Of a stretch of DNA of 43,378 nucleotides, positions 8,283-32,429 are shown piece by piece. The translations under genes were made by a program, and so were the position numbers. Positions within the stretch are counted from its first letter, which is position 1. Each line of letters starts with the position of its first letter. The DNA is taken from IMG/VR virus record IMGVR_UViG_3300026457_000028, positions 1-43,378 of that record; one strand, given 5' to 3'. Under the pieces are notes generated by a model that worked only from the letters and a program-made list of their open reading frames with translations, was not told the DNA's origin and searched no databases. Origin of the DNA: a virus.

Positions 8283-8319
8283 CCTACGTCCAAAACGCTG
8301 AACAAGACACAGAGACATT

Positions 8320-8935: not shown

Positions 8936-8937
8936 AA

Positions 8938-9222: not shown

Positions 9223-9230
9223 TATAAATA
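9223..9230 (+). promoter_or_regulatory. T4-type late promoter TATAAATA for dnaK
   Basis: An exact TATAAATA directly after the mazG-like stop codon, 83 bases before dnaK. The following leader holds a GGGCA/TGCCC hairpin (9264-9275) and the motif TCTTGCTTAATTATAAGGAG (9287-9306), shared with the hsp20 leader. Confidence 0.65.
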
Positions 9231-9312
9231 ATTTTGTAGAACGCCAATAGGGTTTTACGAAACGGGCAGTTGCCCACAATTAAAATCTTGCTTAATTATA
9301 AGGAGAAATGTT

Positions 9313-11178: not shown

Positions 11179-11187
11179 ACTCGTTAT

Positions 11188-11237
11188 GTAGGGTGCCCGG
11201 GTGGGGCCCTACTAAAATTCTTGCTTAATTAAAGGAG
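11188..11237 (+). promoter_or_regulatory. hsp20 leader: hairpin plus TTCTTGCTTAATTAAAGGAG
   Basis: Inverted repeat GTAGGGT/GCCCTAC (11188-11212), then at 11219-11237 a motif nearly identical to that before dnaK. The motif ends in the AAGGAG binding site. CTT of the motif can pair weakly with AAG of the binding site. Confidence 0.45.
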
Positions 11238-11244
11238 ATATAAA

Positions 11245-11691
11245 ATGACACAATTAACACGTTTTGACACAGCCGCTCTAAACAGAGCATTAATCGGTTT
11301 CGACAATCTATTCGATACTTTCGAAACACGCTTTGCACATCAGATTTCGAACAACTATCCTCCATATAATATTGAAAAGTCTGGAGAAAACCAGTATAAT
11401 ATAGTTGTTGCTGTAGCAGGATTCGGTAAAGATGAAGTTGCAGTAGAAGTGGAAGGTGATCAATTAACTATTCGCGGCGAGAAGGCAATCAATGCTAACG
11501 AAGGCGAATACCAAGTTGAGTACTTACACAGAGGTCTTGCTTTCCGTGATTTCGAACGTAGATTTACTCTAGCAGAACACATGGAAATCAAGTCAGCAGA
11601 AATTAAGGATGGTGTGCTTACAATTCAAATCGAGCGCATTGTTCCTGAAGCACTTCTGCCACGTAAGATTGAAGTGAAAGAAGTTAAGTAA
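11245..11691 (+). CDS. Small heat-shock protein, Hsp20/IbpA type
   Basis: 148 residues. The alpha-crystallin domain is clear: YPPYNIEKSGENQYNIVVAVAGFGKDE, EVEGDQLTIRGEK, YLHRGLAFRDFERRFTLAEH and GVLTIQIERIVPE, ending in a KIEV segment like the I-x-I tail. Such holdases keep unfolded proteins soluble for DnaK, encoded directly upstream. Small Hsps are frequent in T4-like marine phages. Confidence 0.95.
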   Translation: MTQLTRFDTAALNRALIGFDNLFDTFETRFAHQISNNYPPYNIEKSGENQYNIVVAVAGFGKDEVAVEVEGDQLTIRGEKAINANEGEYQVEYLHRGLAFRDFERRFTLAEHMEIKSAEIKDGVLTIQIERIVPEALLPRKIEVKEVK

Positions 11692-11697
11692 AAAATC

Positions 11698-11713
11698 GGG
11701 GGCTCCGGCCCCC
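11698..11713 (+). terminator. Strong GC hairpin after hsp20, no U-tract
   Basis: GGGGGC/GCCCCC with a TCCG loop. No T run follows (ACTAATAAATACC), so it may act as an RNA stabiliser or partial terminator. A late-promoter-like AATAAATA (11717-11724) sits just after it. Confidence 0.45.
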
Positions 11714-11716
11714 ACT

Positions 11717-11724
11717 AATAAATA
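11717..11724 (+). promoter_or_regulatory. Late-promoter-like AATAAATA for clpS operon
   Basis: Fits NATAAATA and is followed by CCATTA, then GGAGGG and the clpS ATG at 11747. Confidence 0.45.
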
Positions 11725-11746
11725 CCATTAAGAATGGAGGGCCAAT

Positions 11747-12055
11747 ATGCCAACTGTAGACACCGAAATTAAAATTGACGAAAAGATTAAAATCGATATC
11801 ACTGAACCTAAGCGTTACAAGGTATTGTTTTTAAATGATAACAAAACTCCAATCGACTTTGTTATTGAATTACTAATGACTGTGTTTAAGCACTCCAGAG
11901 AAAATGCTGAACAGATTACATTAACTGTACACAATGAAGGTTCAGCAGTAGTAGGTGTTTATACCTACGAGATCGCCGAGCAGAAAGGTGTTGAGGCAAC
12001 ACACCTTGCACGTCAAGCAGGCTTCCCATTACAAATTAAAGTGGATTCCGAATGA
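11747..12055 (+). CDS. clpS: ClpS-like adaptor (N-degron recognition)
   Basis: 102 residues. After a charged flexible N-terminus the ClpS core is clear: RYKVLFLNDNKTPIDFVIELL, LTVHNEGSAVVGVYTYEIAE and a final hydrophobic strand. N30-D31, T34 and H62 match the residues that bind the alpha-amino group of N-degrons in bacterial ClpS. It would feed N-end-rule substrates to ClpAP. Its end overlaps the heme oxygenase start by 4 bases. Host ClpA is presumably the partner. Confidence 0.93.
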   Translation: MPTVDTEIKIDEKIKIDITEPKRYKVLFLNDNKTPIDFVIELLMTVFKHSRENAEQITLTVHNEGSAVVGVYTYEIAEQKGVEATHLARQAGFPLQIKVDSE

Positions 12056-12606
12056 GTCTAAAAGAACTTACACACGAGCAACATCGCAGAGCAGAAACAA
12101 GGCCTTTTGTTAAAGTCTTATTTTCAGGAAATGTAAATCCTAAACTATACGCAACATATCTAAAAAATCAACATCCAATGTATGAGATTTTAGAAGTCTG
12201 TGCTATGCCACATGGATTACTTTCCGGTCTACCAGAGATACGCAGAGCACCTGCAATTTTATCTGACTTCATAGAACTATGGGGCTCAGACAATCCTGAA
12301 GAACCAAAAATGTGTCCGGTAGTGGATGAATATATCAAATATATTCTCAGCATCAAAGATGATCCTAAAAAGTTGATGGCACACATTTATGTACGTCACA
12401 TGGGAGATTTATCAGGCGGTCAAATGATTGCTAAAAGAGTTCCAGGCAGTGGCAAATACTATCAGTTTGGAGACGAACCTGAAAAGATCAAAGAAGCAAT
12501 TCGTGCAAAACTAGATGATAGTCTAGCAGATGAAGCAAGAGTATGTTTTGATTTTGCGGCAAAATTCTTTGATCAAATGATGGATATAGTTCCACACTAT
12601 GAGTAA
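12052..12606 (+). CDS. ho1: Heme oxygenase
   Basis: 184 residues. The N-terminal LTHEQHRRAETRPF holds the proximal heme-ligand histidine (H11 in this count; H8 less likely), and GDLSGGQ at ~118-124 is the distal-helix signature that contacts bound oxygen. The enzyme opens heme to biliverdin IXa, CO and iron, using reduced ferredoxin. The next gene, overlapping by 8 bases, encodes a bilin reductase that would use the biliverdin. It also releases iron, possibly useful for the Fe-S cassette (inference). Confidence 0.94.
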   Translation: MSLKELTHEQHRRAETRPFVKVLFSGNVNPKLYATYLKNQHPMYEILEVCAMPHGLLSGLPEIRRAPAILSDFIELWGSDNPEEPKMCPVVDEYIKYILSIKDDPKKLMAHIYVRHMGDLSGGQMIAKRVPGSGKYYQFGDEPEKIKEAIRAKLDDSLADEARVCFDFAAKFFDQMMDIVPHYE

Positions 12607-13279
12607 AGTATGGGACACGCTGATTGAAGTTCAGCATCTTTTAGAAAGCAGTTTTAATGAAACAGGAACAGAAATCTTTGAACCGGGCATGGATCGCTTT
12701 AATCAGCCTGGTTGGGTTAATCGTGTTTGGACCAGTGGGTCTTATCGCCGTGCTCACGTTGATGTTGTGGATGCTAGAGAAACCAAAGGACTCTGGATGA
12801 TGCATTGTTGCATCTTCCCACACTTACACAATCCAGCACCAATTTACGGCTTTGACGTTGTAGCAGGCAAGAATAAGATTACTGGCTGTTTTCATGATTA
12901 CAGCAAAGCAGGAGATTCTAATCATCCTATGATGGAATGGTTTGCTGATTATGTTAAACGACTCGAATGGCGCAGAGAACGCCAACTACCAGAATGGGCT
13001 ACCAACATATTCAGCCCTAGCATGGTAGCCGCAGGTAATGTGCAGAGCGAAGAAGAACTAGCGCAGATTATAGAAATGGCTAAAGATACACTGGCACATT
13101 ACTTAGAAACTGTAGCAGAAACTAATAATACTACTGAAAATACCACAGAAGCGCAGAACTACTACGCAATCAATCAAAAATGTAACCCACATACTCCACG
13201 TGTAATGGCTAGTTTAGGCTTAGATGAAGAGGATGTTAGGGTATTCATACAGGAATGTTTGTTCCCAGAAATTCGCTAA
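12599..13279 (+). CDS. Ferredoxin-dependent bilin reductase (PcyA/PebS/PcyX family)
   Basis: 226 residues. The FDBR core is evident: RVWTSGSYRRAHVDVVDARE, then GLWMMHCCIFPHLHNPAP and IYGFDVVAGKNKITG, and the C-terminal helix NYYAINQKCNPHTPRVMASL. H69 and D86 are spaced exactly like the catalytic H88 and D105 of PcyA. The PcyA E76 position is occupied by an Asp-containing segment (D55/D58), as in some PEB-forming reductases. Product cannot be told from sequence; viral PcyX makes phycoerythrobilin. It follows heme oxygenase with overlap. Confidence 0.9.
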   Translation: MSKVWDTLIEVQHLLESSFNETGTEIFEPGMDRFNQPGWVNRVWTSGSYRRAHVDVVDARETKGLWMMHCCIFPHLHNPAPIYGFDVVAGKNKITGCFHDYSKAGDSNHPMMEWFADYVKRLEWRRERQLPEWATNIFSPSMVAAGNVQSEEELAQIIEMAKDTLAHYLETVAETNNTTENTTEAQNYYAINQKCNPHTPRVMASLGLDEEDVRVFIQECLFPEIR

Positions 13280-13302
13280 ATACAGAATAGACGGATTTTA
13301 CC

Positions 13303-14211
13303 ATGAGAGCAAAAGAATTCATCACAGAAGCAACCAATGCCGCACAACAAGCCGCTATCGCTATTGCTAAAAAGAAAAAGCAAAATGTAAAAGAATTTGC
13401 GCCGGATAATAGTGGCGACGAAGAAGAAACATTACTCAAGTACGCTCGTATTTGGTACAATGGCGATGACGACATACAACAAAAAGTTGAAAAACTATTA
13501 AATCGTATGGGTTGGGAAATTGGCGAAATCGAATCAGAAGAAGGCGGCGCATTTGTTGTGCAGTCTGGCGATGAGCATGGTAAGAGTTATATTGGTTTTG
13601 CCCCAGAAGACTTAACTGAAGCCGCCATGGCGGAAGGTGTCGATATTGGCCGAGAGTGGATGAGCGACACTGAATTGGATCAGTATGTGCCAGATCGCTT
13701 ACAACAACAATGGCGTGAATTGTTGGGTTACGATCGCCATGGCAATCCAAGTGCATTGTGGGCAAACTTAACAGGCGGATATGAACCGGATGTTAATGAT
13801 CGTCAACATCGTGCCCTAATGGTTAAAGTGGCTAACAAATGGTTTGCGGCTAAGAAGATTCCTAATGTTAAATTCTTCAGTGTTAGAGATGCAGACGATG
13901 AATTAGAATGGTTAGTTCAAATTGGCCCAGAAGGTATGTCAGAAGATTGGCAGAAGGTTAATAAGAAAGACAAAACCGATGGCATGAGCAGTAAAGCCGT
14001 TAAAGCATATCGTAGAGAACATCCTGGTAGTAAATTAAAAACAGCAGTCACTACACCTCCTAGCAAATTAAAGAAAGGATCTAAGGCAAGTAAGCGTAGA
14101 TCAAGTTTTTGTGCTAGAAGTGATGGCCAAAAGAAAATGCACAATATTGATTGCACTAAGACACCAGACAAGGCAATCTGCAAAGCACGTAAACGTTGGA
14201 ACTGTGAATGA
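13303..14211 (+). CDS. Putative capsid-packaged internal protein with CTS; Cys-rich basic C-terminus
   Basis: 302 residues. It starts MRAKEFITEA, matching T4 capsid-targeting sequences (IPIII: MKTYQEFIAEA), with a predicted gp21-type cleavage after I-T-E. The middle is acidic and mixed; the end is very basic and has SRRSSFCARSDGQKKMHNID, then Cys residues and KARKRWNCE, a C-terminal signature I recall from other T4-like phage proteins. It would be packed in the head and ejected into the host. Its stop overlaps the start of the next CTS gene. A CTAAATA box precedes it. Confidence 0.78.
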   Translation: MRAKEFITEATNAAQQAAIAIAKKKKQNVKEFAPDNSGDEEETLLKYARIWYNGDDDIQQKVEKLLNRMGWEIGEIESEEGGAFVVQSGDEHGKSYIGFAPEDLTEAAMAEGVDIGREWMSDTELDQYVPDRLQQQWRELLGYDRHGNPSALWANLTGGYEPDVNDRQHRALMVKVANKWFAAKKIPNVKFFSVRDADDELEWLVQIGPEGMSEDWQKVNKKDKTDGMSSKAVKAYRREHPGSKLKTAVTTPPSKLKKGSKASKRRSSFCARSDGQKKMHNIDCTKTPDKAICKARKRWNCE

Positions 14212-15909: not shown

Positions 15910-16599
15910 ATGTTTGGTGCAAGTTACACAGGTACTGGAATTTACCGTTCAGCCGCACAGATCAATGAAGCAATGGGTCGTGTCTATGGACACATGAGCC
16001 TAGCAGTTCTTGTGTCTATGATTGTTAGTTACTTTGTAGGTACTAGCCCAGAATTGTTACAATTCTTCTTTACAGGTGTAATGAAGTGGATTGTAATTTT
16101 TGCACCACTGGTTGCTATCTTTGGTGTTAGCATGGTACTATCTAATAACCCTAGTAAACAAGTCGCCCAACTATGCTTACATGGTTTTGCGGCATTAATG
16201 GGTTTGAGCTTTGCTACAATTTTTGCTATCTTTACCATGGGCAGTATTGTTAGTGCGTTTATGGGTGCGGCGATCTTGTTTGGTACAATGAGCTTCTATG
16301 GATACTTTACAAAACGTAGTTTGGAAAGTCTTGGACAGTTTATGTTCATTGGATTGATTGCTATTGTTATTGCCAGTATTGTTAACATCTTTATTGGTAG
16401 TAGTGTAATGGCCATGGTTATCAGTGCATTAGCAATTATTATCTTTCTAGGATTAACTGCTTACGATACACAGCAAATACGAGAAATGGTTTCAATCGAC
16501 TCTGATCCTGCAACCGAAGTAACAGGTGCATTAACACTATATATGGATTTTATTAATCTGTTCATTAATTTACTACAGTTGTTTGGTGATAGAAAATAA
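15910..16599 (+). CDS. Bax inhibitor-1 / YccA-YbhL family membrane protein
   Basis: 229 residues with about seven hydrophobic helices. The family signature is visible: GRVYGHMSLAVLVSMIVSY near the N-terminus and the conserved end LTAYDTQQIREM plus ALTLYMDFINLFINLLQLFG. In E. coli, YccA binds and inhibits the membrane protease FtsH; other members conduct calcium. The phage copy may modulate FtsH (inference), notably since this window also encodes an SPFH protein like HflK/HflC. A strong terminator follows. Confidence 0.92.
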   Translation: MFGASYTGTGIYRSAAQINEAMGRVYGHMSLAVLVSMIVSYFVGTSPELLQFFFTGVMKWIVIFAPLVAIFGVSMVLSNNPSKQVAQLCLHGFAALMGLSFATIFAIFTMGSIVSAFMGAAILFGTMSFYGYFTKRSLESLGQFMFIGLIAIVIASIVNIFIGSSVMAMVISALAIIIFLGLTAYDTQQIREMVSIDSDPATEVTGALTLYMDFINLFINLLQLFGDRK

Positions 16600-16620: not shown

Positions 16621-16647
16621 AAAAGGGCTCTTCGGAGCCCTTTTTTA
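16621..16647 (+). terminator. Rho-independent terminator after the Bax-inhibitor gene
   Basis: AAGGGCTC/GAGCCCTT hairpin with TTCG loop and a six-T run. It separates the tRNA-BI-1 unit from the curli operon. Confidence 0.92.
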
Positions 16648-16713: not shown

Positions 16714-17253
16714 ATGAAAAAACTATTATCACTTATAGCATTATTGCCTATGATTGTATCGGCAGCACCTTTAGGTGATTACACCTTTAAGAGTCCTGCC
16801 TTTAACGGCGTAGGTTACAGCAGTCATGTATTAACCATTGAGAATCAAGAGCGCACACGTCAGAAAGAACGTGCAGATAAACTACAGGCTGAAATTGACA
16901 AAGCAGCCGCAGATAAGAAAAACACCAACCTTGCTAAGTTTGTTAGTAACTTAGAATCACGTATCTATGCACAGATTAGTCAGAACGTAGCAACCGCTAT
17001 GTTTGCCAATAACAACTGTACAGCAAGTAGCAACACAAACTGTTCTGGCAACATTGACTTCCAGGGCAACTATATTAGTTGGGGCAGAGTTAGTAGTGCT
17101 AACGATGCTAACTGTTCAACAGCCTACGGATACTGCATTATGTTAAAGATTGCAGATCCTACAGCCACTAACCCAAGTACAGCATCATGCACAGACACTG
17201 GAATGAGTTGTGTGTATGTTCCATTAAGTTCATTCCAAATGCCGGGGAACTAA
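16714..17253 (+). CDS. csgF: CsgF-like curli assembly factor
   Basis: 179 residues. The signal peptide (MKKLLSLIALLPMIVSA) is followed by LGDYTFKSPAFNGVGYSSHV, which parallels the start of mature CsgF (TMTFQFRNPNFGG...) that plugs into the CsgG channel. A helical, charged segment follows (~40-85, ending SNLESRIYAQIS), then a Cys-containing C-terminal domain. In E. coli CsgF links curlin nucleation to the CsgG pore. It lies 3 bases upstream of csgG, as expected. It is longer than E. coli CsgF (138 residues). GGGAGCG serves as binding site. Confidence 0.85.
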   Translation: MKKLLSLIALLPMIVSAAPLGDYTFKSPAFNGVGYSSHVLTIENQERTRQKERADKLQAEIDKAAADKKNTNLAKFVSNLESRIYAQISQNVATAMFANNNCTASSNTNCSGNIDFQGNYISWGRVSSANDANCSTAYGYCIMLKIADPTATNPSTASCTDTGMSCVYVPLSSFQMPGN

Positions 17254-17256
17254 GAC

Positions 17257-18426
17257 ATGAAAAAGACAATACTATCCCTAGCAGTTTTAACTATGCTTTC
17301 AGGTTGTGCTGTTATGCAGACAACTGGAGTACTAGACAAGAGTCCTGAAGTTACAGGGCAAATGACTAATGTTAAGAAAGAATTTGATACAATACCTAGT
17401 CCAATCGCTGGAAGACCACTAAGCGTGGCCGTTTATAGTTTTACTGATAAAACAGGTCAACGTAGACCGCAGGCAAACATTGCCAGTTTATCAACAGCAG
17501 TGACACAGGGTGCAGAAACATTCTTAATACAGGCATTACAAAATGTAGGACGCGGTCAATGGTTCGACGTTGTAGAACGTGTGGGCATTGATAACCTAAC
17601 TAAAGAACGTTTAATTATTAGGCAAATGCGCGAAGCATATGAAGGTAAAGATGCTAAACCATTGCTACCAATGCAATTCGCTGGAATTATTGTAGAAGGC
17701 GGAATAGTAGGCTACGATCAAAGCACTACCAGCGGTGGTGTAGGTCAACGTATATTTGGCATAGGCAAAAATACACAGTGGAGCACTGATACAGTAACAG
17801 TAAGTTTACGAGCAGTTAGCGTAAACACTGGTAAGGTATTAGCCACAGTGACAGTACAAAAGACTATCTTAAGTTCAGCAGACAGCGTATCTGCATTAAA
17901 ATTCTTTGACGCAGGCACTAAGGCATTTGAAGCAGAAGCAGGTTTAACTATCAATGAACCTGGCACTTACGCTACAAAGGCAACTATTGAAATGGCAGTC
18001 GTAGAGTTAATTAAGGAAGGACAACGTAAAGGTGTATGGGAGTTTAAACCAGAATCCGCACCAGCGGCCAAGGCACCTGTACCAGCACCAGCGGCCCAGC
18101 CGGTAATTAGCTCTGAGATTAAAGAAGAAGTTAAAGTAGAGGAGAAGAAAGATGTCGTGGTTCAATCACAAACCAAATCCGAAACCGAAACCAAGGCCGT
18201 ACCCAGTACCGCCGCAAAAGAACTAGAGAAGTTACCTACAGAAGCAATTCTAAAGGATGCTCAGTTTATATACAAGGAGCCAAACGAAAAGAGTCAAAGG
18301 ACTTGGCAGTTTAAGCCAAATACACGAGTATTCATAACCGGGAGCGAAGGTGATTGGGTACAAGTGCAGGACGTAGAGAAGCGTAAAGGGTTTGTTAAAA
18401 AAGAAGTAGTTAACAAACAAAAATAA
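17257..18426 (+). CDS. csgG: CsgG curli secretion channel with C-terminal SH3-like extension
   Basis: 389 residues. Lipobox LTMLSGC puts the acylated Cys at 17. Residues ~45-265 follow E. coli CsgG closely: PLSVAVYSFTDKTGQ, STAVTQGAETFLIQAL, WFDVVERVGIDNLTKERLII, IIVEGGIVGYDQSTTSGGVG, RIFGIGKNTQWSTDTVTVSL, VQKTILSSADS and a C-terminal KGVWEFK. CsgG forms the nonameric outer-membrane pore for unfolded curlins. A Pro/Ala/Lys linker (~268-325) and an SH3-like domain (~330-389, ending DWVQVQDVEKRKGFVKKE) are extra relative to E. coli and might bind peptidoglycan. Confidence 0.96.
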   Translation: MKKTILSLAVLTMLSGCAVMQTTGVLDKSPEVTGQMTNVKKEFDTIPSPIAGRPLSVAVYSFTDKTGQRRPQANIASLSTAVTQGAETFLIQALQNVGRGQWFDVVERVGIDNLTKERLIIRQMREAYEGKDAKPLLPMQFAGIIVEGGIVGYDQSTTSGGVGQRIFGIGKNTQWSTDTVTVSLRAVSVNTGKVLATVTVQKTILSSADSVSALKFFDAGTKAFEAEAGLTINEPGTYATKATIEMAVVELIKEGQRKGVWEFKPESAPAAKAPVPAPAAQPVISSEIKEEVKVEEKKDVVVQSQTKSETETKAVPSTAAKELEKLPTEAILKDAQFIYKEPNEKSQRTWQFKPNTRVFITGSEGDWVQVQDVEKRKGFVKKEVVNKQK

Positions 18427-18509
18427 GAAAGAGAGGTAGCACTTTAAATTTTTTAATGGTCTTAGACCAAGGAGCGAGTTAGGGAAGATAACCTAATTCT
18501 GTAAAAACG

Positions 18510-19484
18510 ATGCATAAGAGAATCACAGGCGCTGGTGGGTTGTCGAGAAAATTACTCACAATTCTGGTGTTGTCTGCAATGACAACATTGGGTTATGCGG
18601 CTGACAATAGCATTTACATTGATCAGTCCGGCGATAATAGTACTATTACTATGACTCAAGACGGAGCAGGAAACAAAGTAAAGGGTATATTATTAAATGG
18701 CACAGCAGGTGGAACAACTGATCCTGCTAAACTAACTGGTGCCGCACAGACTATCAACATTGAGCAAACAGGAGCAACTAACGTATTGGCGTTAGGTGTT
18801 AACTCAACACAAGGTGGTACTGTACAAGGTTATGCTAATATTGGTGTGAATTTAAATTACCAAGTAAGTGGTGGTGGAAACACAGGTTACATTAATATTA
18901 ACAATAATGGTACAGGCACAGCCAGTGGTAACGTTGTTAGTTTTGTTCAAAGTGGCGGTAGTGCAACTACAACACTTAACATGACTGGTACAAGTAACCA
19001 ATTAACTGTTGGAACTAGTGGTGGTGCTAACAACACATTTACAGGTACAATCAACGCTGATGAAACTGTAGCAACTGTTAGTCAAACAGGTGGCGGCGGC
19101 AACGCAACTACACTTAACATGACCGGAAACAAAGGTCAAGTTAGTCTAACAACTGTTGGTGCAACTAACACTACATCTGTAACACAGAGTGCATACGGTG
19201 TAACTGGTGCTCAAGCAATTATCAACATCACAGGTTCTGGTAATACTACAGACGTAACACAAACTGGTGCGTACGATCACTATGCTAGTATTACTGTAAC
19301 AGGCGGTAGCAATGGCATTACACTTGCACAAACAGGTGGATCTGCTACTGGACACAGCACAACGTTATCTGTAACAGGTAGTACTAATACTATTGGTATT
19401 ACACAACAAGGATCAGTTAGCAATCTAACTAATCTTGCTATATCAGGAAGTGGCAACACTTACACTATTTTACAGAAAAACTAA
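18510..19484 (+). CDS. Curlin-repeat fibre protein (CsgA-like)
   Basis: 324 residues. A signal peptide ends near LGYAA, followed by about ten imperfect repeats of roughly 22-25 residues of the curlin type (for example NSIYIDQSGDNSTITMTQDG and TINIEQTGATN), rich in Gln, Asn, Gly, Thr and Ser with regular Q-x-G and G-x-x-N pairs. It ends GNTYTILQKN. Such repeats stack into amyloid beta-solenoids. Longer than E. coli CsgA (151 residues). It lies downstream of csgFG and would be their substrate. Binding site before ATG 18510 is weak. Confidence 0.9.
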   Translation: MHKRITGAGGLSRKLLTILVLSAMTTLGYAADNSIYIDQSGDNSTITMTQDGAGNKVKGILLNGTAGGTTDPAKLTGAAQTINIEQTGATNVLALGVNSTQGGTVQGYANIGVNLNYQVSGGGNTGYININNNGTGTASGNVVSFVQSGGSATTTLNMTGTSNQLTVGTSGGANNTFTGTINADETVATVSQTGGGGNATTLNMTGNKGQVSLTTVGATNTTSVTQSAYGVTGAQAIINITGSGNTTDVTQTGAYDHYASITVTGGSNGITLAQTGGSATGHSTTLSVTGSTNTIGITQQGSVSNLTNLAISGSGNTYTILQKN

Positions 19485-19493
19485 GAGGGTTCC

Positions 19494-20600
19494 ATGAAAT
19501 TATGGATGGTAGTATTATGCGTTCCGTTGCTGAGTACATCGTTGGCCTACGCCGCGATAGGCAAAGTAACGGAACAAATCAATACACCCCCGACTATCCA
19601 GAGACAGAATTCGACACTAACGGCGTCGAAAGGGACTGGAGTGGAAATGAACGATGCGATCAAGACCCAGCAGGGCAAGGTGGGGATAACATTTGAGGAC
19701 GATACTAAAGTCCAAGTCAATGAAAATTCTAAACTTGTAATTGATGATTTCGTTTATGATCCAAAAAGTAAGGCGGGTAAACTAGGTGCTAAGATTGCTC
19801 TTGGCACAGTTCGTTATGCGTCTGGACAGATTGCTAAGAATTCGCCTCAGAATGTGGCCCTTTCTACTCCTAGTGCTACTGTTGCTGTACGCGGTACTGA
19901 CTTTACTGCCACTGTAGACGAGCTAGGCGAAAGTACAATTATTCTTTTACCTAGTTGTCCTAATGATAGACCAACACGCTCAGTTAGAGATATTGAAACT
20001 AACTGTAAGACTGGCAGTATTGAAGTTAGCAATGATGTAGGTACTGTAATACTAAATCAACCCTTCCAAGTAACTAAAGTTCAAAGTAGAACACAACCTC
20101 CTACACCGCCTAAAGTATTAAATCTAAGTGAAATGGCCATTGGCAATATGTTAATTGTCAGTCCTCCGCGCGAAGTCAAACAAGCACAACAAGAACAACA
20201 GAGAACATTTAATGCTTTAGACTTTGACTTTTTAAAAGAGAAAGGTTTGGAGAATTATTTAGATATGCAGGCCAATATGATTTATGAAGATAAGTTAGCC
20301 AAAAACTTTTTGTCTAATGATTTCCTTGCTAACTTATTCGACATTGTGGGAAACATACTGGATCAAAAGTTTTTAGATCCTGTAGATCCTGTGCTACCAG
20401 ACTATAAAAAGTCCAGTGGCATTATAGCCTACAAAGATGATATGAGTGTTGAACTCTGTCGCGACAACGGTGCTGACATACAATGTGTTAAAACACCACT
20501 CACACAAAACTCAACAATATTACAAACACAGGGCAATTTAGAATTTAAGAACAGAATAAATCAGGGAGGTAATACTATTATTACCTTGATACAAAAATGA
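19494..20600 (+). CDS. FecR-domain secreted protein with curlin-like C-terminal tail
   Basis: 368 residues. Signal peptide MKLWMVVLCVPLLSTSLAYA. The FecR domain spans ~45-150: VGITFEDDTKVQVNENSKLV, ALGTVRYASGQIAKNSPQN and LSTPSATVAVRGTDFTATV. Here FecR is not linked to a sigma factor gene. The rest is helical and acidic, with two Cys pairs. The last residues, INQGGNTIITLIQK, resemble the end of the curlin protein upstream (GNTYTILQKN), suggesting shared export or fibre docking. It overlaps the next gene by 4 bases. Confidence 0.85.
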   Translation: MKLWMVVLCVPLLSTSLAYAAIGKVTEQINTPPTIQRQNSTLTASKGTGVEMNDAIKTQQGKVGITFEDDTKVQVNENSKLVIDDFVYDPKSKAGKLGAKIALGTVRYASGQIAKNSPQNVALSTPSATVAVRGTDFTATVDELGESTIILLPSCPNDRPTRSVRDIETNCKTGSIEVSNDVGTVILNQPFQVTKVQSRTQPPTPPKVLNLSEMAIGNMLIVSPPREVKQAQQEQQRTFNALDFDFLKEKGLENYLDMQANMIYEDKLAKNFLSNDFLANLFDIVGNILDQKFLDPVDPVLPDYKKSSGIIAYKDDMSVELCRDNGADIQCVKTPLTQNSTILQTQGNLEFKNRINQGGNTIITLIQK

Positions 20601-22990
20601 TAAAACGTTTATTACAGTTCCTTGTGTTTTTAACTGTGTGCATTAGCGCACATAGTCAGGCTGTGACTTATAATGCTATTGCTACTGCTTATGTTACTAC
20701 TACAATTAGTCAACAAGTAGTGTTTGATAGTAATATGCAACAAGGCGGTACATTTACAATGAGTGTACTAGCACACAACGGCGGCGGCCGTGCAGGACAA
20801 AGTGATACGGCTAACGTAAAGATACAGTTCTATAACAGCAGTGGTGGATTAATCACTAGCGTAAACTCAACTAACTCTGCTAACTTACCAAACCCAAATG
20901 CTGTGTGTGGTAATCCTTGTATTGATACTGCGGTACCTTGGACTACAGTAACTATCAGTGCAACGCTTACTGCGGCACAAGCAAGCCAAGTAGCCTATGC
21001 CACAGTCAGTATGTACGGTATTGATGGAAGTTACTGGGCAGGTGATTATGGTCCTTGGTATCGTGCTCCTACATTCCAACTTAATGGCGGCGGCAACTTA
21101 TTGTATAACCCGGAGTTTGGGCCTTATAATAATATAACAGCACAAGGTTGGGTATCAAATCCAGGGTTCGGTGCTTGTCAAGGTGCATGGGGCGGATCAA
21201 ATGCCTGTATCGTTAACAGCGATGGAGTGCCTGGTTCGAGTACAGTTGGCTTAGTTGCTAACGCTAACGGTGGCGGCCCTAGTGCTACTGGTGGTACTAC
21301 TAGTGGTACTGCTGGTGGATATAATAACACAATGTCAGTGACCAATGCTGGCACGGGCGCAACTGCCGGTGCGGCTCCTGCTCCGACTCCTACAGTAACA
21401 GGAACTAGTGTAACTTATACAACTAGAACTGTGGTTAATGGTAATACAACTACTGTTTATCGCACACCTGTAACTACAACAACTTACAGCGACGGAACTA
21501 GCACAAGTACAAATGGTACTGAAGCAGTATATCAAACTAAGGTTGCGTCTAACGTAGTAACTACAAAAATTGTAAACGGTGTTCTGACAACAACTACAAC
21601 ACCAATTAATACAGTTACTACAACCGGCGTTAATGGCAGCACCATAGAAGCAAACGGCACAGCAACAACTACAACACAAAACATACAGCAGGGATTAAAC
21701 TATAAAGTCTACAAATTCGATCCTTACACTTATAACTGCGGTTGGTTAGGTTGTATTAAAAACTGGTTAGGGCCATATCGTGTACCTGATATGCCACCTG
21801 GTGGACAGCCTGTTAGTATTGGTACAACTAGTAACGGAGTTTATGTTCCGACTAACGGCAGTTTTCCAAATATGGACACTGGTACCTTAGTTAGATTCAA
21901 CGGAACGATTACTGCTCCGACGACACAAAATTATCCTGCAGGTACTGTATATAGATTATACTTCTATAGCAACAGCGATGACGGATTTGTTATGAGTGTA
22001 AACGGACAAACAGTTATCAACGATAGATCTACATTCCAACTTCAGAGTATAGGTGGCTATACAGCGTCTGGCTGGATAGACATAGTAGCAGGACAGACTT
22101 ATAATTTTGAAGCATGGTACTGGAACGACACCGGCGGCTATGGACTACGTTTTCAATGGGACTACGGTGCAGGCCGTATGAACGTACCTAACTCTGCATT
22201 TACTACAGGGTGGATTACTGAAACAAATACAATTGACACTAGTGGATTTGTTTATTCTAACAGCGCAGTAGTTGACGTGTCGGGTACAACAGTTTTATTA
22301 GGACCAGTAGTTGAAGGTGGAACAATTACACAAACAAATGCGCCTGGTGATCAAGTTATAGGTAGCGGTGGCTCATACGTTCCTCCAGCAGATATAGATG
22401 TTAAACAAACTAGAATTAATACTTGGAACAACGGTACACAAAACTACAATAACGAATTGTACATCACACAAACATACGGTACTAACAATAATGTAACTAT
22501 TACACAAAGTGGTACTAAGAACAAAATCGAATTTACCTTAGAAGGAAACAACAATATTGTTAATAATACTCAAACTGGCAGTAACTACTTAAAGCAAGAA
22601 GTGCCTGGGTGGGGCAATAACATAACTACTAATCAGTCAAATGCTAGTGGTTCAAATTATGCTGAAACTAAAATACAAGGAAATGGTAATACTGTAAATC
22701 ATACACAAACCGGTAATCACATATTGTTCAGTAAAGTTACAGGCGATATTAATACTGTAAACACTACACAGTCTGGCGGTGCTGGCCATTTCGCTGATAT
22801 TACACTAACAGGAAATAACAACTCAGCACTAGTGACACAAACAGGAAATACTGCTAACAGAGCAGTTATTGATGTAACTAACGCAGGTGGCCCAGCCAGT
22901 GTTGACCTGCAACAAACAGGCGGCAAATCATTTAGCATCATTCAAAGTTGTACAAATCCAGCGGGTTGTAGCACAGTTGTTCGCCAATAA
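20597..22990 (+). CDS. Large surface adhesin: PA14 domain plus C-terminal curlin repeats (CsgB-like)
   Basis: 797 residues. Signal peptide ending SAHSQA; a beta-rich Thr/Asn N-terminal region; a Thr-rich repetitive linker (~255-365); a PA14 domain at ~425-540 (YRLYFYSNSDDGFVMSVNGQ, GYGLRFQWDYGAG), a fold that binds glycans or processes precursors; then curlin repeats from ~595 to the end (ITQTYGTNNNVTITQSGTKN and later NTQTGSN, HTQTGNH, TQSGGAG, VTQTGNT), ending FSIIQSC. Possibly a fibre nucleator or tip adhesin. It starts in an ATGA overlap with the FecR gene. Confidence 0.88.
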   Translation: MIKRLLQFLVFLTVCISAHSQAVTYNAIATAYVTTTISQQVVFDSNMQQGGTFTMSVLAHNGGGRAGQSDTANVKIQFYNSSGGLITSVNSTNSANLPNPNAVCGNPCIDTAVPWTTVTISATLTAAQASQVAYATVSMYGIDGSYWAGDYGPWYRAPTFQLNGGGNLLYNPEFGPYNNITAQGWVSNPGFGACQGAWGGSNACIVNSDGVPGSSTVGLVANANGGGPSATGGTTSGTAGGYNNTMSVTNAGTGATAGAAPAPTPTVTGTSVTYTTRTVVNGNTTTVYRTPVTTTTYSDGTSTSTNGTEAVYQTKVASNVVTTKIVNGVLTTTTTPINTVTTTGVNGSTIEANGTATTTTQNIQQGLNYKVYKFDPYTYNCGWLGCIKNWLGPYRVPDMPPGGQPVSIGTTSNGVYVPTNGSFPNMDTGTLVRFNGTITAPTTQNYPAGTVYRLYFYSNSDDGFVMSVNGQTVINDRSTFQLQSIGGYTASGWIDIVAGQTYNFEAWYWNDTGGYGLRFQWDYGAGRMNVPNSAFTTGWITETNTIDTSGFVYSNSAVVDVSGTTVLLGPVVEGGTITQTNAPGDQVIGSGGSYVPPADIDVKQTRINTWNNGTQNYNNELYITQTYGTNNNVTITQSGTKNKIEFTLEGNNNIVNNTQTGSNYLKQEVPGWGNNITTNQSNASGSNYAETKIQGNGNTVNHTQTGNHILFSKVTGDINTVNTTQSGGAGHFADITLTGNNNSALVTQTGNTANRAVIDVTNAGGPASVDLQQTGGKSFSIIQSCTNPAGCSTVVRQ

Positions 22991-23008
22991 AATCTAACTA
23001 AATATTGG

Positions 23009-23152
23009 ATGCTGAAAAACATCTTAATATTAGCAATTATTACAACCTTAGCAGGCTGCGCCGGAATAGCATTTTGCGACAAAGACGGACGACCCAAGGG
23101 TTGCCACTCATGGGATCCTGCTACTCGAAACGGCGCGGCACCAAGATCATGA
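23009..23152 (+). CDS. Small lipoprotein, 47 residues
   Basis: MLKNILILAIITTLAGCAG has a lipobox with the Cys at 17, followed by a short Cys-containing tail (AFCDKDGRPKGCHSW). It lies between the PA14/curlin gene and the metallopeptidase gene, overlapping the latter by an ATGA. A CTAAATA box lies just upstream. Too short for a known curli part such as CsgE. Function unknown. Confidence 0.7.
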   Translation: MLKNILILAIITTLAGCAGIAFCDKDGRPKGCHSWDPATRNGAAPRS

Positions 23153-23685
23153 GAGCAAAAGAATTTATAAAAGAAGCAGAAGCAAGTGACGCCGATTTAA
23201 AAGCAAGATATGGTGACTTCGATCCTGAAGATAAAATAATGCTTCCAACTACAAAATTAAGCAGAGAACCTGCAGCCACGCTTTGGACAGCATATGATGT
23301 AGTTAGAAATATTCTAGGTAGAGATAGAGTAACTGACGATGATGACGAATTAGGTCCTGGAATGTATTATGTCTACCAGAGTAGCGGAGATCCAATGTTT
23401 AGGGATACAGGCGACGGCGTTGGCAGTATCAACTTACCAAATCTAGACAGCACCGCGGCACGAGACGTTGCTGTTGCGGCCCACGAAGCATATCACGCTT
23501 ATGTACACGCTAAAAGTAAAGGCGGCTTTGCACACGCTAATGAAAAGATTATTAACAACTTAGCAGAAAAATGGTTGCGTAAACATTTATCAGGACAAGC
23601 CTTACATACAGCATTAGAACAAATTATAGGCAGTAGAATTAGTTACGGCCGCAACCACTTACCAAAGCCAGGATTTAAAAAATGA
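23149..23685 (+). CDS. Capsid-targeted HEXXH metallopeptidase (putative internal protein)
   Basis: 178 residues from ATG 23149, set by the MRAKEFIKEA start shared with two other genes here; an upstream in-frame extension (to 23005) would read out of frame through the small lipoprotein gene. The CTS predicts head packaging and cleavage after I-K-E. The sequence AAHEAYHAYVH holds a zinc-binding HEXXH, with a downstream NEKIINNLAE that could supply the third ligand. It probably cleaves a host or virion protein after ejection. It overlaps the cyclase gene by 4 bases. Confidence 0.82.
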   Translation: MRAKEFIKEAEASDADLKARYGDFDPEDKIMLPTTKLSREPAATLWTAYDVVRNILGRDRVTDDDDELGPGMYYVYQSSGDPMFRDTGDGVGSINLPNLDSTAARDVAVAAHEAYHAYVHAKSKGGFAHANEKIINNLAEKWLRKHLSGQALHTALEQIIGSRISYGRNHLPKPGFKK

Positions 23686-25733
23686 AAATACAATTCAAAA
23701 AAATACTAGTAAGTCCATGGACTGCTTTACTAACTCTAGCACTAGTTGTTGGTGTCAGAGTTGCAGATCCTACATTTGTTGAAAGCGTAAGACTACGTTA
23801 TTTTGACACATTAATTACAAGTAAAGAAGTTACAGTTAACAACATAGTTACTGTAAATATCGACGAAGCCACGTTAGACAAATATGGTCAGTGGCCCTTA
23901 CCAAGAGCAGAATATGCTAAACTTGTGAAGGAACTATACCAAAGAAATGCAGGACTTGTTGTACTTAATGTTCTTATGCCAGAGACAGATCGTACTGGTG
24001 GAGATGGTGCGCTAGGACAAACTCTAAAAGAGTTCCCTGTAGTACTAGGAAGTGCGCCAGCACAGAAAACAAAGAATACACCACGTGTTCCAGGATCGGC
24101 TGTACTAGGTCCAGAACATCTAGATCAAATTATTCAATACCCGGGACTAATCGCCAACGTTCCTCAACTAGAACAAAATGCCGCAGGTGTTGGCATTACA
24201 GGAACACTTCCAGAAGTAGATGGTGTTAATCGCCGCATGCCGTTAATTGTTACTGTAGACGGCAAATTATATCCAGCATTGAGTTTAGAGACACTTAGAG
24301 TCGCCGCAGGAGACTCTACCTTCCAAGTAAAACTTTTTGAAGGCGGCGTTGAGAAAATGCGTATTCCAAAGTTTGGTCCTATTGCTACAGATAGTTTAGG
24401 AAGAATTTGGATCGATTGGAGCCAAGAAGCTCATAGCGTTAGTGCTGTTAAACTTCCAAAAGATTTAGGTGGCGCCGTCGTTATTGTAGGTCCTACTGCC
24501 GCTGGTATTAGTAATCCGTTACCGACAAGCAAAGGTGCTGTATTTCCTCACGAAGTGCAGGCCGCAGTAATTGGTACAATGGTTAACGGCATTGTTATTC
24601 AACGTCCCGACTATGCCGACGGGGTTGAAATTTTAGCATTAGTATCACTTGGCATATTATTAATTTTCTTATCGAGGTGGACTTATGTTGGCATTGGTGC
24701 TACTGTGGTTATTGTTGGTGCCATCGTTCCTGGTACTATCTACGCTTTCAATAATTGGCTCGTCTTGGGAGACGCGACTGCGATCGCGTTTGGCCTTATT
24801 ATCGTTGCTCTTCATTGTTATGGCGTTAAGTTTATAAGCGAGTTTTTACAGAAACAGGCAATTAAGAAACAGTTCGCTGGATACTGTAGTAAGGAAGTAG
24901 TAGAAATGCTACAAAAAGATCCAGACCTAATCAAGCGTGGTGTGCGTAAAGACGTATCCGTTATGTTCAGTGACTTGCGTGGCTTTACACCCATTGGAGA
25001 ACACTACGGTGATGATGTTGCTGGATTAGGCAAGTATATGAACGGTTACATGGATGCTATTAGTCAGCCTATCATGGACAACAAGGGTATGGTCATAAAG
25101 TATGTAGGTGACGCAAGTATGCACATACACGGTGCTCCGATTGAAGATCCTAATCATGCCCGTACTATTGTTGCTGTTGGTTTACAGATGTTAGATGCTG
25201 TTGATGAGTATACTAAACTAATGGAAGCACAAGGCTTACCACCAGCCGCAATGGGTTGGGGTTGTAACTCAGGTATTGGCTTTATTGGTGAGATGGGATC
25301 AACTGACAGACATAGTTACGACATCTTAGGTGACATGGTTTCAACCGCCGCTCGTTTAGAAGCACGTTGTAAGGCCTATGGCGTGTTATGTATCATCGGT
25401 GCTGAAACTTACAACCGTACTAAAGATGACTTCTTCTATCTAATGCTAGATAACTTACAACCTAAAGGCAAAACTGTAGCAGACTTAATCTATACAGCAT
25501 TAAGAACCAAAGGTGAAGATTACAGTAAAGATAAAGTACAGCACGAGTTGATGCATGCCTTGTATAAACAAAAGAAGTTCGACGAAGCAGCCGCTATGTG
25601 TAAAAAACTAAAAGGCAACTTTGGTGGACAAATGGACAAGTACTACAAAATCTGGATTGAACGTTGCGAGTTTATGAAAGAACAGAACCTTCCAGATAAT
25701 TGGAATGGTGAATTCATAGCACATGAAAAATAA
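23682..25733 (+). CDS. CHASE2-domain transmembrane adenylate cyclase (class III)
   Basis: 683 residues. One N-terminal membrane segment (~12-30), a periplasmic CHASE2 sensor domain (~30-300; LRYFDTLIT, NIVTVNIDEATLDKYGQWPLPR), three membrane helices (~305-385) and a cyclase domain (~425-610). Metal-binding D431 (FSDLRGFT) and D477 (KYVGDAS) are present, as are K473 and D547, the ATP-selecting pair. The transition-state Arg (R558) is kept but the usual Asn is Ser554 (GDMVSTAAR). It would make cAMP in response to a periplasmic cue. ATGA overlap with the metallopeptidase. Confidence 0.92.
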   Translation: MKIQFKKILVSPWTALLTLALVVGVRVADPTFVESVRLRYFDTLITSKEVTVNNIVTVNIDEATLDKYGQWPLPRAEYAKLVKELYQRNAGLVVLNVLMPETDRTGGDGALGQTLKEFPVVLGSAPAQKTKNTPRVPGSAVLGPEHLDQIIQYPGLIANVPQLEQNAAGVGITGTLPEVDGVNRRMPLIVTVDGKLYPALSLETLRVAAGDSTFQVKLFEGGVEKMRIPKFGPIATDSLGRIWIDWSQEAHSVSAVKLPKDLGGAVVIVGPTAAGISNPLPTSKGAVFPHEVQAAVIGTMVNGIVIQRPDYADGVEILALVSLGILLIFLSRWTYVGIGATVVIVGAIVPGTIYAFNNWLVLGDATAIAFGLIIVALHCYGVKFISEFLQKQAIKKQFAGYCSKEVVEMLQKDPDLIKRGVRKDVSVMFSDLRGFTPIGEHYGDDVAGLGKYMNGYMDAISQPIMDNKGMVIKYVGDASMHIHGAPIEDPNHARTIVAVGLQMLDAVDEYTKLMEAQGLPPAAMGWGCNSGIGFIGEMGSTDRHSYDILGDMVSTAARLEARCKAYGVLCIIGAETYNRTKDDFFYLMLDNLQPKGKTVADLIYTALRTKGEDYSKDKVQHELMHALYKQKKFDEAAAMCKKLKGNFGGQMDKYYKIWIERCEFMKEQNLPDNWNGEFIAHEK

Positions 25734-25734
25734 T

Positions 25735-25763
25735 TTGACAGAGATTATAGCAGAGTGTACAAT
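25735..25763 (+). promoter_or_regulatory. Sigma70-like promoter inside the start of the S11 peptidase region
   Basis: TTGACA (25735-25740), 17-base spacer, TACAAT (25758-25763). If used, transcripts would begin near ATG 25770 and be almost leaderless, so the match may be fortuitous. Confidence 0.4.
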
Positions 25764-25769
25764 AGACAG

Positions 25770-26504
25770 ATGTGTAGAGTTATATCTATATTGGTATTTT
25801 TTGCCTTTTTACATCATGGGCAAACAAGCGCCGCCACTGCCAAACCTCTGTCTATCACCGCTCAGAGCTGGCTCGTGGCCGATGAATCCGGCAGAATTAT
25901 TCAAAGCGAAAACATAGATCAACAGCGTAGTATTGCCAGCATTACTAAACTAATGACGGCAATGGTTGTGTTAGATGCTAATCAAAACTTAGATGAACAA
26001 ATCGGTAAGTATACCCGAGCCGAAACAATACAACTAGCATTAGTACACAGCGACAACAAAGCGGCTGATCTACTGTGTCAATACTATCCTAATGGTAAGG
26101 ATGCCTGTGTTAGAGCAATGAATACTAAAGCACATCTGTTAGGTATGCACGACACAAAGTATGTCGAACCTACAGGGCTTAGTGTGTTTAATGTAAGCAC
26201 AGCCACTGATTTAATTAAACTAGTTCTAGCGGCAAAGAACTACGCAGAGATTATTGAAGCATCACGCACACCGCAGGTTAAAATTAAGATAAAGAAAAAG
26301 TGGTTTATCTTTAATAATACTAATCCAATTATTGGCAAGCGTCATGAATTTATTGTCAGCAAAACTGGCTACATAAGAGCCAGTGGAGGTTGCATAGTAA
26401 TGATGTTGGATACAGAAATAGGACGCAGAATTGTAGTAGTACTAGGAAGTAAGAATACTAAGACACGTATTCCTGAAGCAGAGTTTATTGCTGTTAATTC
26501 CTAA
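25770..26504 (+). CDS. S11-family D-Ala-D-Ala peptidase (PBP5/PBP7-like), periplasmic
   Basis: 244 residues from ATG 25770 (GTG 25755 is an alternative). The signal peptide runs RVISILVFFAFLHHGQTSA. All active-site motifs are present: SITK (acyl-serine and lysine), SDN in VHSDNKAADLL, and KTG in IVSKTGYIRASGG. Such enzymes trim or cleave peptidoglycan cross-links. It lacks the extra C-terminal domain of PBP5, so it is closer to PBP7. It may open the wall for fibre export or lysis (inference). It ends convergent with the desaturase gene, overlapping 11 bases. Confidence 0.9.
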   Translation: MCRVISILVFFAFLHHGQTSAATAKPLSITAQSWLVADESGRIIQSENIDQQRSIASITKLMTAMVVLDANQNLDEQIGKYTRAETIQLALVHSDNKAADLLCQYYPNGKDACVRAMNTKAHLLGMHDTKYVEPTGLSVFNVSTATDLIKLVLAAKNYAEIIEASRTPQVKIKIKKKWFIFNNTNPIIGKRHEFIVSKTGYIRASGGCIVMMLDTEIGRRIVVVLGSKNTKTRIPEAEFIAVNS

Positions 26505-27198
26505 CCTGTGCAAGGTTAAAGAAGCGTAGTACCTTAATATAGATCCAACCGATATCTAATTCAAACCAACGTTGACGGAAACTAGCATTGGCCCCATCGG
26601 CATGATGATTGTTATGTAGTTCCTCACCACCGATCCAAATAGCCCAAGGCCATAAGTTACGGCTAGTGTCTTTGGTGTCAGTATTACGATATCCCCACCA
26701 ATGTGCCAGTCCATTAATAACACCAGCGGCCCAGAATGGAATCCATATCATTTGAATGCCCCACACAAGAATACCCCAAGGACCAAAGAACAATAAGTCT
26801 ATGACTAACATTAAGAGAATTCCAAGGCGGCTGTGTAGGGTGTAAACATTACGCTCTAGCCAATCATCAGGAGTACCTACTCCTAACTTTTCAACCATTG
26901 CGGTATCTTTACTGGCAGAGTGATATAAACTCCAGCCTTTGAATAGCACAGTTTTAATACCGTAAACTTGTGGACTGTGCGGATCTAAATCTGTATCGCT
27001 GGCTTGATGATGTTTGCGATGTATTGCTACCCATTGCTTGGTAACCATACCTGTTGTAAGCCAAAGCCAAAAACGCATGAAGTGATTTACTGCTGGATGG
27101 AATGTTACTGCTCTGTGTGTTTGTCCTCTATGAAGATAAAGGGTAACACAGGCTATGGTGATTTGAACCATCACCAAGGTGGCTATAATTGTTGACAT
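26494..27198 (-). CDS. Acyl-CoA/fatty-acid desaturase (membrane di-iron, delta-9 type)
   Basis: 234 residues. The three histidine boxes are intact: HRGQTH, HRKHH and HNNHH, which bind the di-iron centre, interspersed with four hydrophobic stretches. The NGLAHWWGYRNTDT segment is typical of stearoyl-CoA-type desaturases. It introduces a double bond into acyl chains, raising membrane fluidity. It needs a ferredoxin or similar donor. Short compared with many family members (~280-300) but complete in motifs. It is the last gene of the minus-strand island. Confidence 0.93.
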   Translation of the reverse strand: MSTIIATLVMVQITIACVTLYLHRGQTHRAVTFHPAVNHFMRFWLWLTTGMVTKQWVAIHRKHHQASDTDLDPHSPQVYGIKTVLFKGWSLYHSASKDTAMVEKLGVGTPDDWLERNVYTLHSRLGILLMLVIDLLFFGPWGILVWGIQMIWIPFWAAGVINGLAHWWGYRNTDTKDTSRNLWPWAIWIGGEELHNNHHADGANASFRQRWFELDIGWIYIKVLRFFNLAQVRN

Positions 27199-32164: not shown

Positions 32165-32226
32165 TAAGGACATAAATTTACTTTGGTATTCATTGTAAAT
32201 TTACTTTGGTATTGTGTTTTTATGAT

Positions 32227-32425: not shown

Positions 32426-32429
32426 AACC

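Follow-up and report, generated by a model that had tools for sequence, protein, structure and literature searches.

Why a phage should carry the genes for a curli fibre, and what an infected cell could do with such a fibre, is the question raised by a gene cluster in a 43,378-base virus record (IMG/VR record IMGVR_UViG_3300026457_000028), called the window below. From 16714 to 25733 the window contains seven co-directional open reading frames (ORFs), for CsgF, CsgG, a first curlin-repeat protein (curlin 1), a FecR-domain protein, a second curlin-repeat protein (curlin 2), a zincin-like protein and a CHASE2-cyclase (Table 1). The genes were called from the window's ORFs with Pfam, NCBIfam and PHROGs and read as a single operon, the spacings between successive ORFs being 3, 83 and 9 bases, a 4-base overlap, 14 bases and another 4-base overlap. 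An earlier note, made from the letters alone, had drawn the cluster at 16714–22990; its co-directionality stands and its limits do not, since the operon also takes in the zincin-like ORF and the cyclase gene. Judged by homology, the genes needed for export and for the fibre are all present as close homologues, in a conserved order. The phage curli set is already known and is not new in kind. The most informative part is one that the earlier note had mentioned in passing, the joining of PA14 and curlin in one protein: curlin 2 is modular, its tail constant and its N-terminal modules swapped independently between phages, and its PA14-fold module is most likely a lectin-like head, as predicted from a structural model.

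Table 1. Features of the curli operon and its possible borders in the window
Feature	Position	Strand	Evidence
Terminator-like hairpin, possible upstream operon boundary	16621..16644	+	10-pair stem, T-rich tail, just before csgF
CsgF homologue, signal-peptide-like N-terminus	16714..17253	+	Pfam CsgF 1.8e-7, 31.8 bits (cut-off 25.8); phrog_35372 1.5e-40; hydrophobic segment 4–22
CsgG outer-membrane lipoprotein pore subunit, LSGC lipobox (Cys17), C-terminal extension ending in SH3 domain	17257..18426	+	Pfam CsgG 1.2e-46
SH3 domain of CsgG, residues 334–385	18256..18411	+	Pfam SH3_4 1e-7
Curlin 1, putative main fibre subunit: signal peptide and curlin repeats	18510..19484	+	Repeat count, homologues, AlphaFold2
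Exported FecR-domain protein	19494..20600	+	Pfam FecR 3e-9; phrog_37870 3.2e-121; sole hydrophobic segment 5–23
Curlin 2: signal peptide, exchangeable N-terminal modules, PA14-fold module, curlin tail	20597..22990	+	Pfam Curlin_rpt 21.5 bits (cut-off 20.7); module mosaic
PA14-fold module (sugar-binding adhesin/flocculin-like), about residues 362–540, Asp-Asp-Gly at 461–463	21680..22216	+	Foldseek, VIA-align (predicted model)
Curlin tail of curlin 2, residues 619–797	22451..22987	+	Aligned relatives; 6 repeats
Zincin-like ORF, no signal peptide	23005..23685	+	HExxH motif by eye in translation; in 8/98 contigs
CHASE2 (periplasmic sensor) and class III nucleotide cyclase, last operon gene	23682..25733	+	Pfam CHASE2 7.2e-37, Guanylate_cyc 7.9e-14
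Sigma-70-like promoter after cyclase, possible downstream operon boundary	25735..25763	+	11/12 consensus bases

Curlin 2 is a protein of 797 residues, the last 199 of which align over 193–199 positions in 31 of 31 relatives; the first 600 residues do not align in this way. The first module (residues 27–165) is 82–94% identical in six relatives and mostly below 25% in the others. The PA14 region (401–540) is 58–80% identical in eight relatives, not all of them the same as these six, and is absent or unrelated in most of those remaining. Single proteins display the mosaic directly. In locus L022 the first module is 94% identical to that of the window and the tail 37% (82% and 48% at the DNA level, the same mosaic), and in L007 a tail of 61% identity is joined to an unrelated head. 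L167 has an unrelated first module, followed by a region of 83% identity and a PA14 region of 78%; both L167 and L169 are without the window's first module and carry the PA14 region at 78–79%. Head exchange of this kind would be the behaviour of surface-binding proteins under selection by their ligands.

The fold of the exchanged head was assigned from an AlphaFold2 model of curlin 2 (predicted local distance difference test score, pLDDT, 68.9; predicted template modelling score, pTM, 0.38). Foldseek returned 44 matches in the Protein Data Bank at E ≤ 0.001, with PA14 proteins (6qe7/6qdi) leading; the sugar-bound PA14 domain of the Marinomonas adhesin MpAFP was matched at 6.9e-6 (target TM score 0.66), and the yeast adhesins Epa1 and Flo5 at about 3e-5 (3.2e-5 for the flocculin/Epa group). 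VIA-align gave Z scores of 17.9 (6qdi), 14.9 (sugar-bound MpAFP PA14), 13.9 (Lg-Flo1) and 13.3 (Flo5), the yeast proteins spanning 12–13.9. These alignments cover well only residues 359–553, and no fold is assigned to residues 27–165 or 266–360. The likeness is one of predicted fold, sequence identity to MpAFP and the flocculins being 12–20%, and the module is fused to curlin repeats rather than to RTX or yeast wall stalks. An Asp-Asp-Gly motif, found also in the MpAFP and flocculin PA14 domains, is present in 12 of 12 PA14 rows. In flocculin-type PA14 domains the Asp pair holds calcium and sugar, and the adjacent Asp pair of the curlin 2 module presumably occupies the position of this site. 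The predicted fold thus bears out a PA14 plus curlin protein where Pfam does not detect PA14 in the window protein itself; the window type lies under the reach of the Pfam model, which detects the domain in relatives. Among 34 curlin 2 proteins, Pfam found PA14 in four, F5/8 type C in three and GLEYA in two, and the heads are predicted to be PA14 or F5/8 type C folds.

A survey with a PA14 model derived from phage rows, and hence biased towards PA14 of the phage type, gave 23 PA14 ORFs in 108 viral loci (same-contig loci and three identical contigs included), all 23 of them curlins, and none in the best 80 bacterial-genome loci, six of which carry a phage-type neighbourhood, five of these six grouping among the phage rows in the CsgG tree described below. 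Three articles on phage curli genes, each consulted in part, provide the background here, and what is said of them holds for those parts. The words PA14, lectin and flocculin do not occur in PMC9599517 or in the main text of either PMC7029224 or PMC9004378. A modular PA14-curlin was not found in the literature searched, from which preprints and most subscription papers fell outside the scope, and seems to have been overlooked. The one paper brought up for curlin and the PA14 domain together, PMC8398270, concerns, by its listing, bonds that adhesins form between cells; among the 15 of 97 papers listed in a broader search, two, both already known, treat phage curli by their titles.

The set as a whole is another matter. 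CsgF and CsgG were described in pelagimyophages in PMC7029224 (2020), which proposed 'sibling capture' and also reported freshwater pelagimyophages without the curli operon; pore genes were reported in phage Melnitz in PMC9004378 (2022); and in PMC9599517 (2022) the set described for pelagiphage podo- and myoviruses extends to CsgA/B-type fibre genes, FecR and a cyclase. In view of these articles the earlier note's statement that it knew of no such complete fibre set on record falls, and the gene order is moreover shared by HTVC008M and Melnitz. In HTVC008M (KC465899), CsgF, CsgG, curlin, FecR, curlin and cyclase lie on one strand, with CsgG 47% and CsgF about 38–41% identical to the window, and its second curlin (AGE60352.1, a 'hypothetical protein') combines PA14 (2.7e-6, over the cut-off) with curlin repeats as in the window. 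The HTVC008M CsgG differs in its length of 280 residues and in lacking the SH3 tail, and its curlin 2 has 441 residues against 797 in the window, which has further N-terminal modules. The window adds the zincin-like ORF, and the phage lineages differ. Melnitz (MZ577097) has the same curli gene order (CsgG 44.5% and cyclase 45.7% identical); unlike the window's, its curlin 2 has 338 residues and shows only Curlin_rpt in Pfam. The curli system of E. coli (csgBAC-csgDEFG) shares CsgG, a CsgF of the same family and CsgA/CsgB-like repeats with the window, which differs from it in the absence of CsgE, the SH3 tail on CsgG, the FecR and CHASE2-cyclase genes within the operon and the PA14-headed curlin. 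In the podovirus type VIII secretion (curli) modules of PMC9599517 a histidine kinase lies directly upstream; in the window this place is taken by a Bax inhibitor-1 protein, an ORF without a Pfam match and a DUF6321 protein.

For the export genes, the profile search that the earlier note had proposed confirms the identities of CsgF, CsgG and FecR (Table 1). CsgG matches the solved E. coli CsgG (3x2r) at 6.4e-42 over residues 8–265, and its lipobox Cys17 is unchanged across 32 aligned rows. Among 32 phage CsgG rows, SH3_4 occurs in eight and SH3_3 in six. In L037 and L038 the start region of the csgG ORF has no lipobox cysteine and its hydrophobic N-terminus is of another kind, perhaps because these starts have diverged. 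CsgF, CsgG, the FecR protein and curlin 2 each have a single N-terminal hydrophobic segment and none later. CsgC and CsgD had no match among the Pfam-scanned window proteins, in a scan neither aimed at those families nor genome-wide.

Both curlins are likewise upheld. The curlin-type repeat pattern G..N.....Q occurs in five copies in curlin 1 and six in curlin 2, counts reached by none of 2000 shuffles in either case, and has no copies in CsgF, CsgG, FecR or the cyclase; for a second, looser pattern, [QN].G..N, the counts in the two curlins do not differ significantly from chance, being reached by 110 and 969 of the 2000 shuffles. The Curlin_rpt scores of the two proteins lie around the Pfam cut-off, that of curlin 1 just below it at 20.4 bits, and 34 of 39 aligned curlin 1 homologues match this family at E ≤ 0.01. 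Curlin 1 also matches the NCBIfam models of CsgA (2e-5) and CsgB (3.4e-5), both far under the model cut-offs. Its hydrophobic N-terminal segment fell under the threshold used; the AlphaFold2 model, a beta-solenoid with pLDDT 81.6, shows a helix at residues 13–25. When the model was aligned by VIA-align with the 193 top Foldseek chains, the best was curli CsgA 8c50 (Z 26.6, 262 residues, 22% identity), and the next row had a Z of 18.4.

The cluster is contiguous with phage DNA, as the earlier note had supposed. Three longer viral contigs (212.5, 104.9 and 67.8 kb) encode a CsgG with 100% identity to that of the window, and their neighbouring genes likewise show 100% identity (in one, L005, the cyclase match begins only at residue 99). 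A relative, G002, carries the same cluster together with T4-type capsid and portal genes. PHROGs, which are phage-specific and here of unknown function, match CsgF, CsgG, FecR and the cyclase at 1.5e-40 to 2.5e-185; neither curlin matches any PHROG. IMG/VR was scanned with CsgG and FecR, giving 63 and 44 loci respectively; after removal of eight loci repeating a contig from 106, there were 98 distinct contigs besides the window, which reach 329 kb in length. As these contigs were recruited through CsgG or FecR, the frequencies of both genes are biased upwards. CsgF precedes CsgG in 97 of the 98, CsgF, CsgG, curlin and FecR follow in order in 82, and all five core genes do so in 60, so that the synteny is found well beyond the window. 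Where more than 6 kb of sequence extends past FecR (62 contigs), the cyclase lies downstream on the same strand in 56; two contigs have it on the other strand. A tblastn search of CsgG against 50,697 phage records gave 11 matching records: HTVC008M and four Melnitz strains at 44–47% identity, and, more weakly matched, phages of Brevundimonas and Caulobacter. A further match (38.5%) is in OR851715.1, a record of 1,499 bases named Salmonella phage S.Kent 1-2-1 and probably a host fragment labelled as phage.

None of six curli-operon genes (CsgF, CsgG, curlin 1, FecR, curlin 2 and cyclase) looks decayed, and they are under purifying selection. With eight chosen relatives, open-ended ORFs being skipped, the ratio of nonsynonymous to synonymous substitution rates (dN/dS) is 0.05–0.33 in 45 of 46 computable comparisons, values that are rough because dS is near or above 1. 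The other value, 0.49, belongs to curlin 1, whose remaining seven pairs give 0.07–0.27. Two of 48 comparisons were saturated, with pN/pS of 0.32 and 0.38.

Bacterial relatives were sought in two ways. A single-sequence scan for a bacterial source returned 18 stretches, none of them a relative; an alignment-based scan of bacterial genomes gave 256, of which the best 80 loci were kept, and among these CsgG relatives in Alphaproteobacteria are 37–51% identical. In a CsgG tree of 160 rows, which left out identical proteins and phage rows of 240 residues or less, 74 bacterial rows fall on one side (Shimodaira–Hasegawa-like approximate likelihood ratio test, SH-aLRT, 93), and the phage rows with six loci from metagenome-assembled genomes (MAGs) on the other. 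One of the six, Hyphomonas sp. TMED17 (L077), has adjacent and co-directional CsgF, CsgG, curlin, FecR and CHASE2-cyclase genes at 7477–13500 of a 705-kb contig, between bacterial flanks (TonB receptor, FAA hydrolase, racemase, oxidase). Unlike the window it has a single curlin ORF of 504 residues and no PA14. Its CsgG stands at the base of the phage side, a place that is unsure because of its long branch (2.52). According to PMC9599517, bacterial curli operons do not include FecR or the cyclase; L077 is one counter-example. This operon form is rare, since a FecR of the Hyphomonas type occurs in one of 105 family genomes, that of L077 itself, and in 15 of 385 class genomes (E 1e-15) only distantly, all but its own at 25–32% identity and mostly within longer ORFs. 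The L077 operon may have arisen by transfer from a phage to the genome. The CsgG of the other five (L075, L076, L078, L079 and L080, in Rhodobacteraceae, Flavobacteriaceae, Pirellulales and Pelagibacter MAG bins) lies inside the phage side of the tree, and these are probably phage contigs in bacterial bins.

The operon also contains genes beyond fibre and pore. Classical FecR has a second membrane segment, unlike the window's FecR protein, which has no transmembrane segment past the signal peptide; its nearest NCBIfam models are the surface proteins Lsa33 and LipL45, both matched below the cut-off. The protein scans, which covered part of the window's ORFs, showed no sigma-factor gene. For these two reasons the role of iron regulator, as in PMC9599517, is doubted, though not disproved. 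The zincin-like ORF has no Pfam or NCBIfam match. The hydrophobic segments of the cyclase (7–25, 312–330, 338–356 and 359–377) have the four-segment layout of a CHASE2 receptor. Among the residues that we take to be those of the active site, namely the metal Asp pair, the purine Lys and the transition-state Asn and Arg, both Asp, the Lys and the Arg are kept, and the usual catalytic Asn (residue 554) is Ser. Across 55 cyclases this position is Ser in 34, including those of the window and Melnitz, Asn in 20, including that of HTVC008M, and a gap in one. The FecR protein and the CHASE2-cyclase may together form an envelope sensor.

How these genes would act together can be outlined, and we regard the chances of the following reading as about even. 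The phage would make its host export a curli-type fibre during infection. CsgF, CsgG, both curlins and the FecR protein would reach the envelope by the Sec pathway, and there CsgG would form an outer-membrane channel that CsgF caps and anchors. Curlin 1 would leave through CsgG and polymerise, and curlin 2 would join the fibre by its curlin tail and display its N-terminal modules, including the PA14-type lectin-like domain. The fibre could then tether an infected cell to the glycans of nearby cells or particles, which would lead to the release of progeny among hosts, the 'sibling capture' of PMC7029224. The exported FecR protein and the CHASE2-cyclase would convert fibre secretion or the state of the envelope into a cyclic nucleotide signal. 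A more specific and more tentative proposal is that aquatic phages furnish the cells they infect with lectin-tipped amyloid fibres, with curlin 1 as the shaft and curlin 2 as an exchangeable head (PA14, F5/8 type C or unassigned modules) that is swapped among phages in the manner of tail-fibre tips.

Several results weigh against fibre export with tethering. CsgE, which the earlier note had already called absent, was found in none of 18 records searched, where an E. coli control gave a match; its absence is non-defining for this branch, because pelagiphage and alphaproteobacterial modules lack CsgE as well (PMC9599517). Foldseek gave no match for curlin 1 at E ≤ 0.001 (best 0.088; 8c50 at rank 8 with E 0.77), and the VIA-align match to 8c50 has a root mean square deviation of 8.5. 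The confidence of the whole curlin 2 model is low, and non-lectin PA14 proteins are also among its VIA-align rows, with Z up to 12.6, so that the PA14 fold alone is no proof of sugar binding. A curlin 2 match is lacking in at least 45 of the 98 contigs, many of which are short or may have diverged heads. The activity of the cyclase is unsure because Ser replaces the usual catalytic Asn. Finally, neither cytograms nor transmission electron microscopy revealed clumping in cultures of Melnitz (PMC9004378), which weighs against capture, though the Melnitz curlin 2 shows no PA14 in Pfam.

Among other explanations, a shield against superinfection or competitors, proposed in PMC9599517, draws on the same gene evidence: the fibres would coat the cell and block receptors or the adsorption of other phages, and tethering would be unneeded. 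We consider it unlikely, as a shield alone leaves the ligand-binding, phage-exchanged heads of curlin 2 unexplained. It is distinctly unlikely that CsgG and CsgF serve as a lysis timer, setting off lysis as a gated pore or in the manner of a pinholin, with the fibre genes secondary. This was proposed for Melnitz in PMC9004378, in part because its authors saw no csgA or csgB; in the window, HTVC008M and Melnitz, however, the CsgG and cyclase genes are separated by two curlin genes, whose products in Melnitz are named curlin associated repeat proteins in the record of that phage itself. In addition, curlin 1 is conserved in position and under purifying selection, and a pore has no need of exchangeable lectin-like heads. 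Both PMC7029224 and PMC9599517 suggested that an ungated CsgG channel admits nutrients, siderophores or cofactors while infection proceeds, which is in keeping with the absent CsgE gate; such a channel would give CsgF, two curlins and the conserved order no purpose, and appears very improbable. That the segment is a bacterial or decayed passenger rather than working phage equipment is hardly credible: beside the alphaproteobacterial CsgG relatives stand the PHROG matches, the same set in sequenced phage isolates and 98 viral contigs, the purifying selection and the grouping of phage CsgG apart from the 74 bacterial rows.

If the lectin-tipped fibre exists, it would turn an infected cell into a trap that catches new hosts by specific glycans, or into a means of attachment to particles, and host-range evolution would have an extended phenotype outside the virion. 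Since 2020 the papers considered here have put forward capture, shielding, uptake and lysis as the purpose of phage curli. An exchanged flocculin-like head on a curlin points to cell-surface ligand binding and makes the question of function testable, and HTVC008M on Candidatus Pelagibacter HTCC1062 is an existing isolate with a PA14-curlin gene.

Genes elsewhere bear on the lineage and host of the phage. T4-type gp23 capsid and gp20 portal genes are present in five of 19 records, among them G002, G005 and G006, and were not found in G001 (212.5 kb, identical to the window here), which is linear and may be a fragment. RIIA occurs in six of 18 records, the window's being 58–64% identical to those of G002, G003, G004 and G009 (G002 64%), with no match in HTVC008M or Melnitz; the tail sheath Pfam model was matched in two of 18 records, HTVC008M and Melnitz only. 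At 32011–32453 the window has a permuted (two-piece) transfer-messenger RNA (tmRNA), scoring 138.4 bits with the permuted and 129.4 bits with the betaproteobacterial model, its predicted tag ending in LVAA. The cut-off of the latter model was exceeded by six of 15 curli-phage records, of which G001 and G010 are the window's own phage. The tmRNA hints at a betaproteobacterial host.

The hairpin and the promoter in Table 1 are possible boundaries, and neither class is enriched in the window (10 terminators against 11.0 expected from shuffles; 33 sigma-70-like promoters against 39.5). A T4-type late promoter (TATAAATA) linked to csgF was rejected, the motif occurring three times in the window against 3.41 expected and nowhere upstream of csgF.

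Directly upstream of the operon lies the Bax inhibitor-1/YccA-like membrane protein (1.4e-53; 15910–16599), found in seven of the 98 curli contigs. Downstream follow a D-alanyl-D-alanine carboxypeptidase (S11; 25755–26504), present in 22 of the 98, and a fatty acid desaturase (26494–27198). A tRNA with a CUA anticodon at 38165–38238, called tRNA-Pyl by ARAGORN, is a possible amber suppressor; two of 51 listed ORFs end in TAG. A heme oxygenase stands beside a ferredoxin-dependent bilin reductase at 12052–13279, the nearest NCBIfam model being PcyA, below its cut-off, and no other photosynthesis genes were seen among the window proteins scanned. The window also encodes a full-length Hsp70/DnaK (2.4e-257; 9313–11178), an Hsp20 (11245–11691) and, at 4767–5336, a cell wall hydrolase of the Hydrolase_2 family; Melnitz has a gene so annotated about 8 kb before its curli genes.

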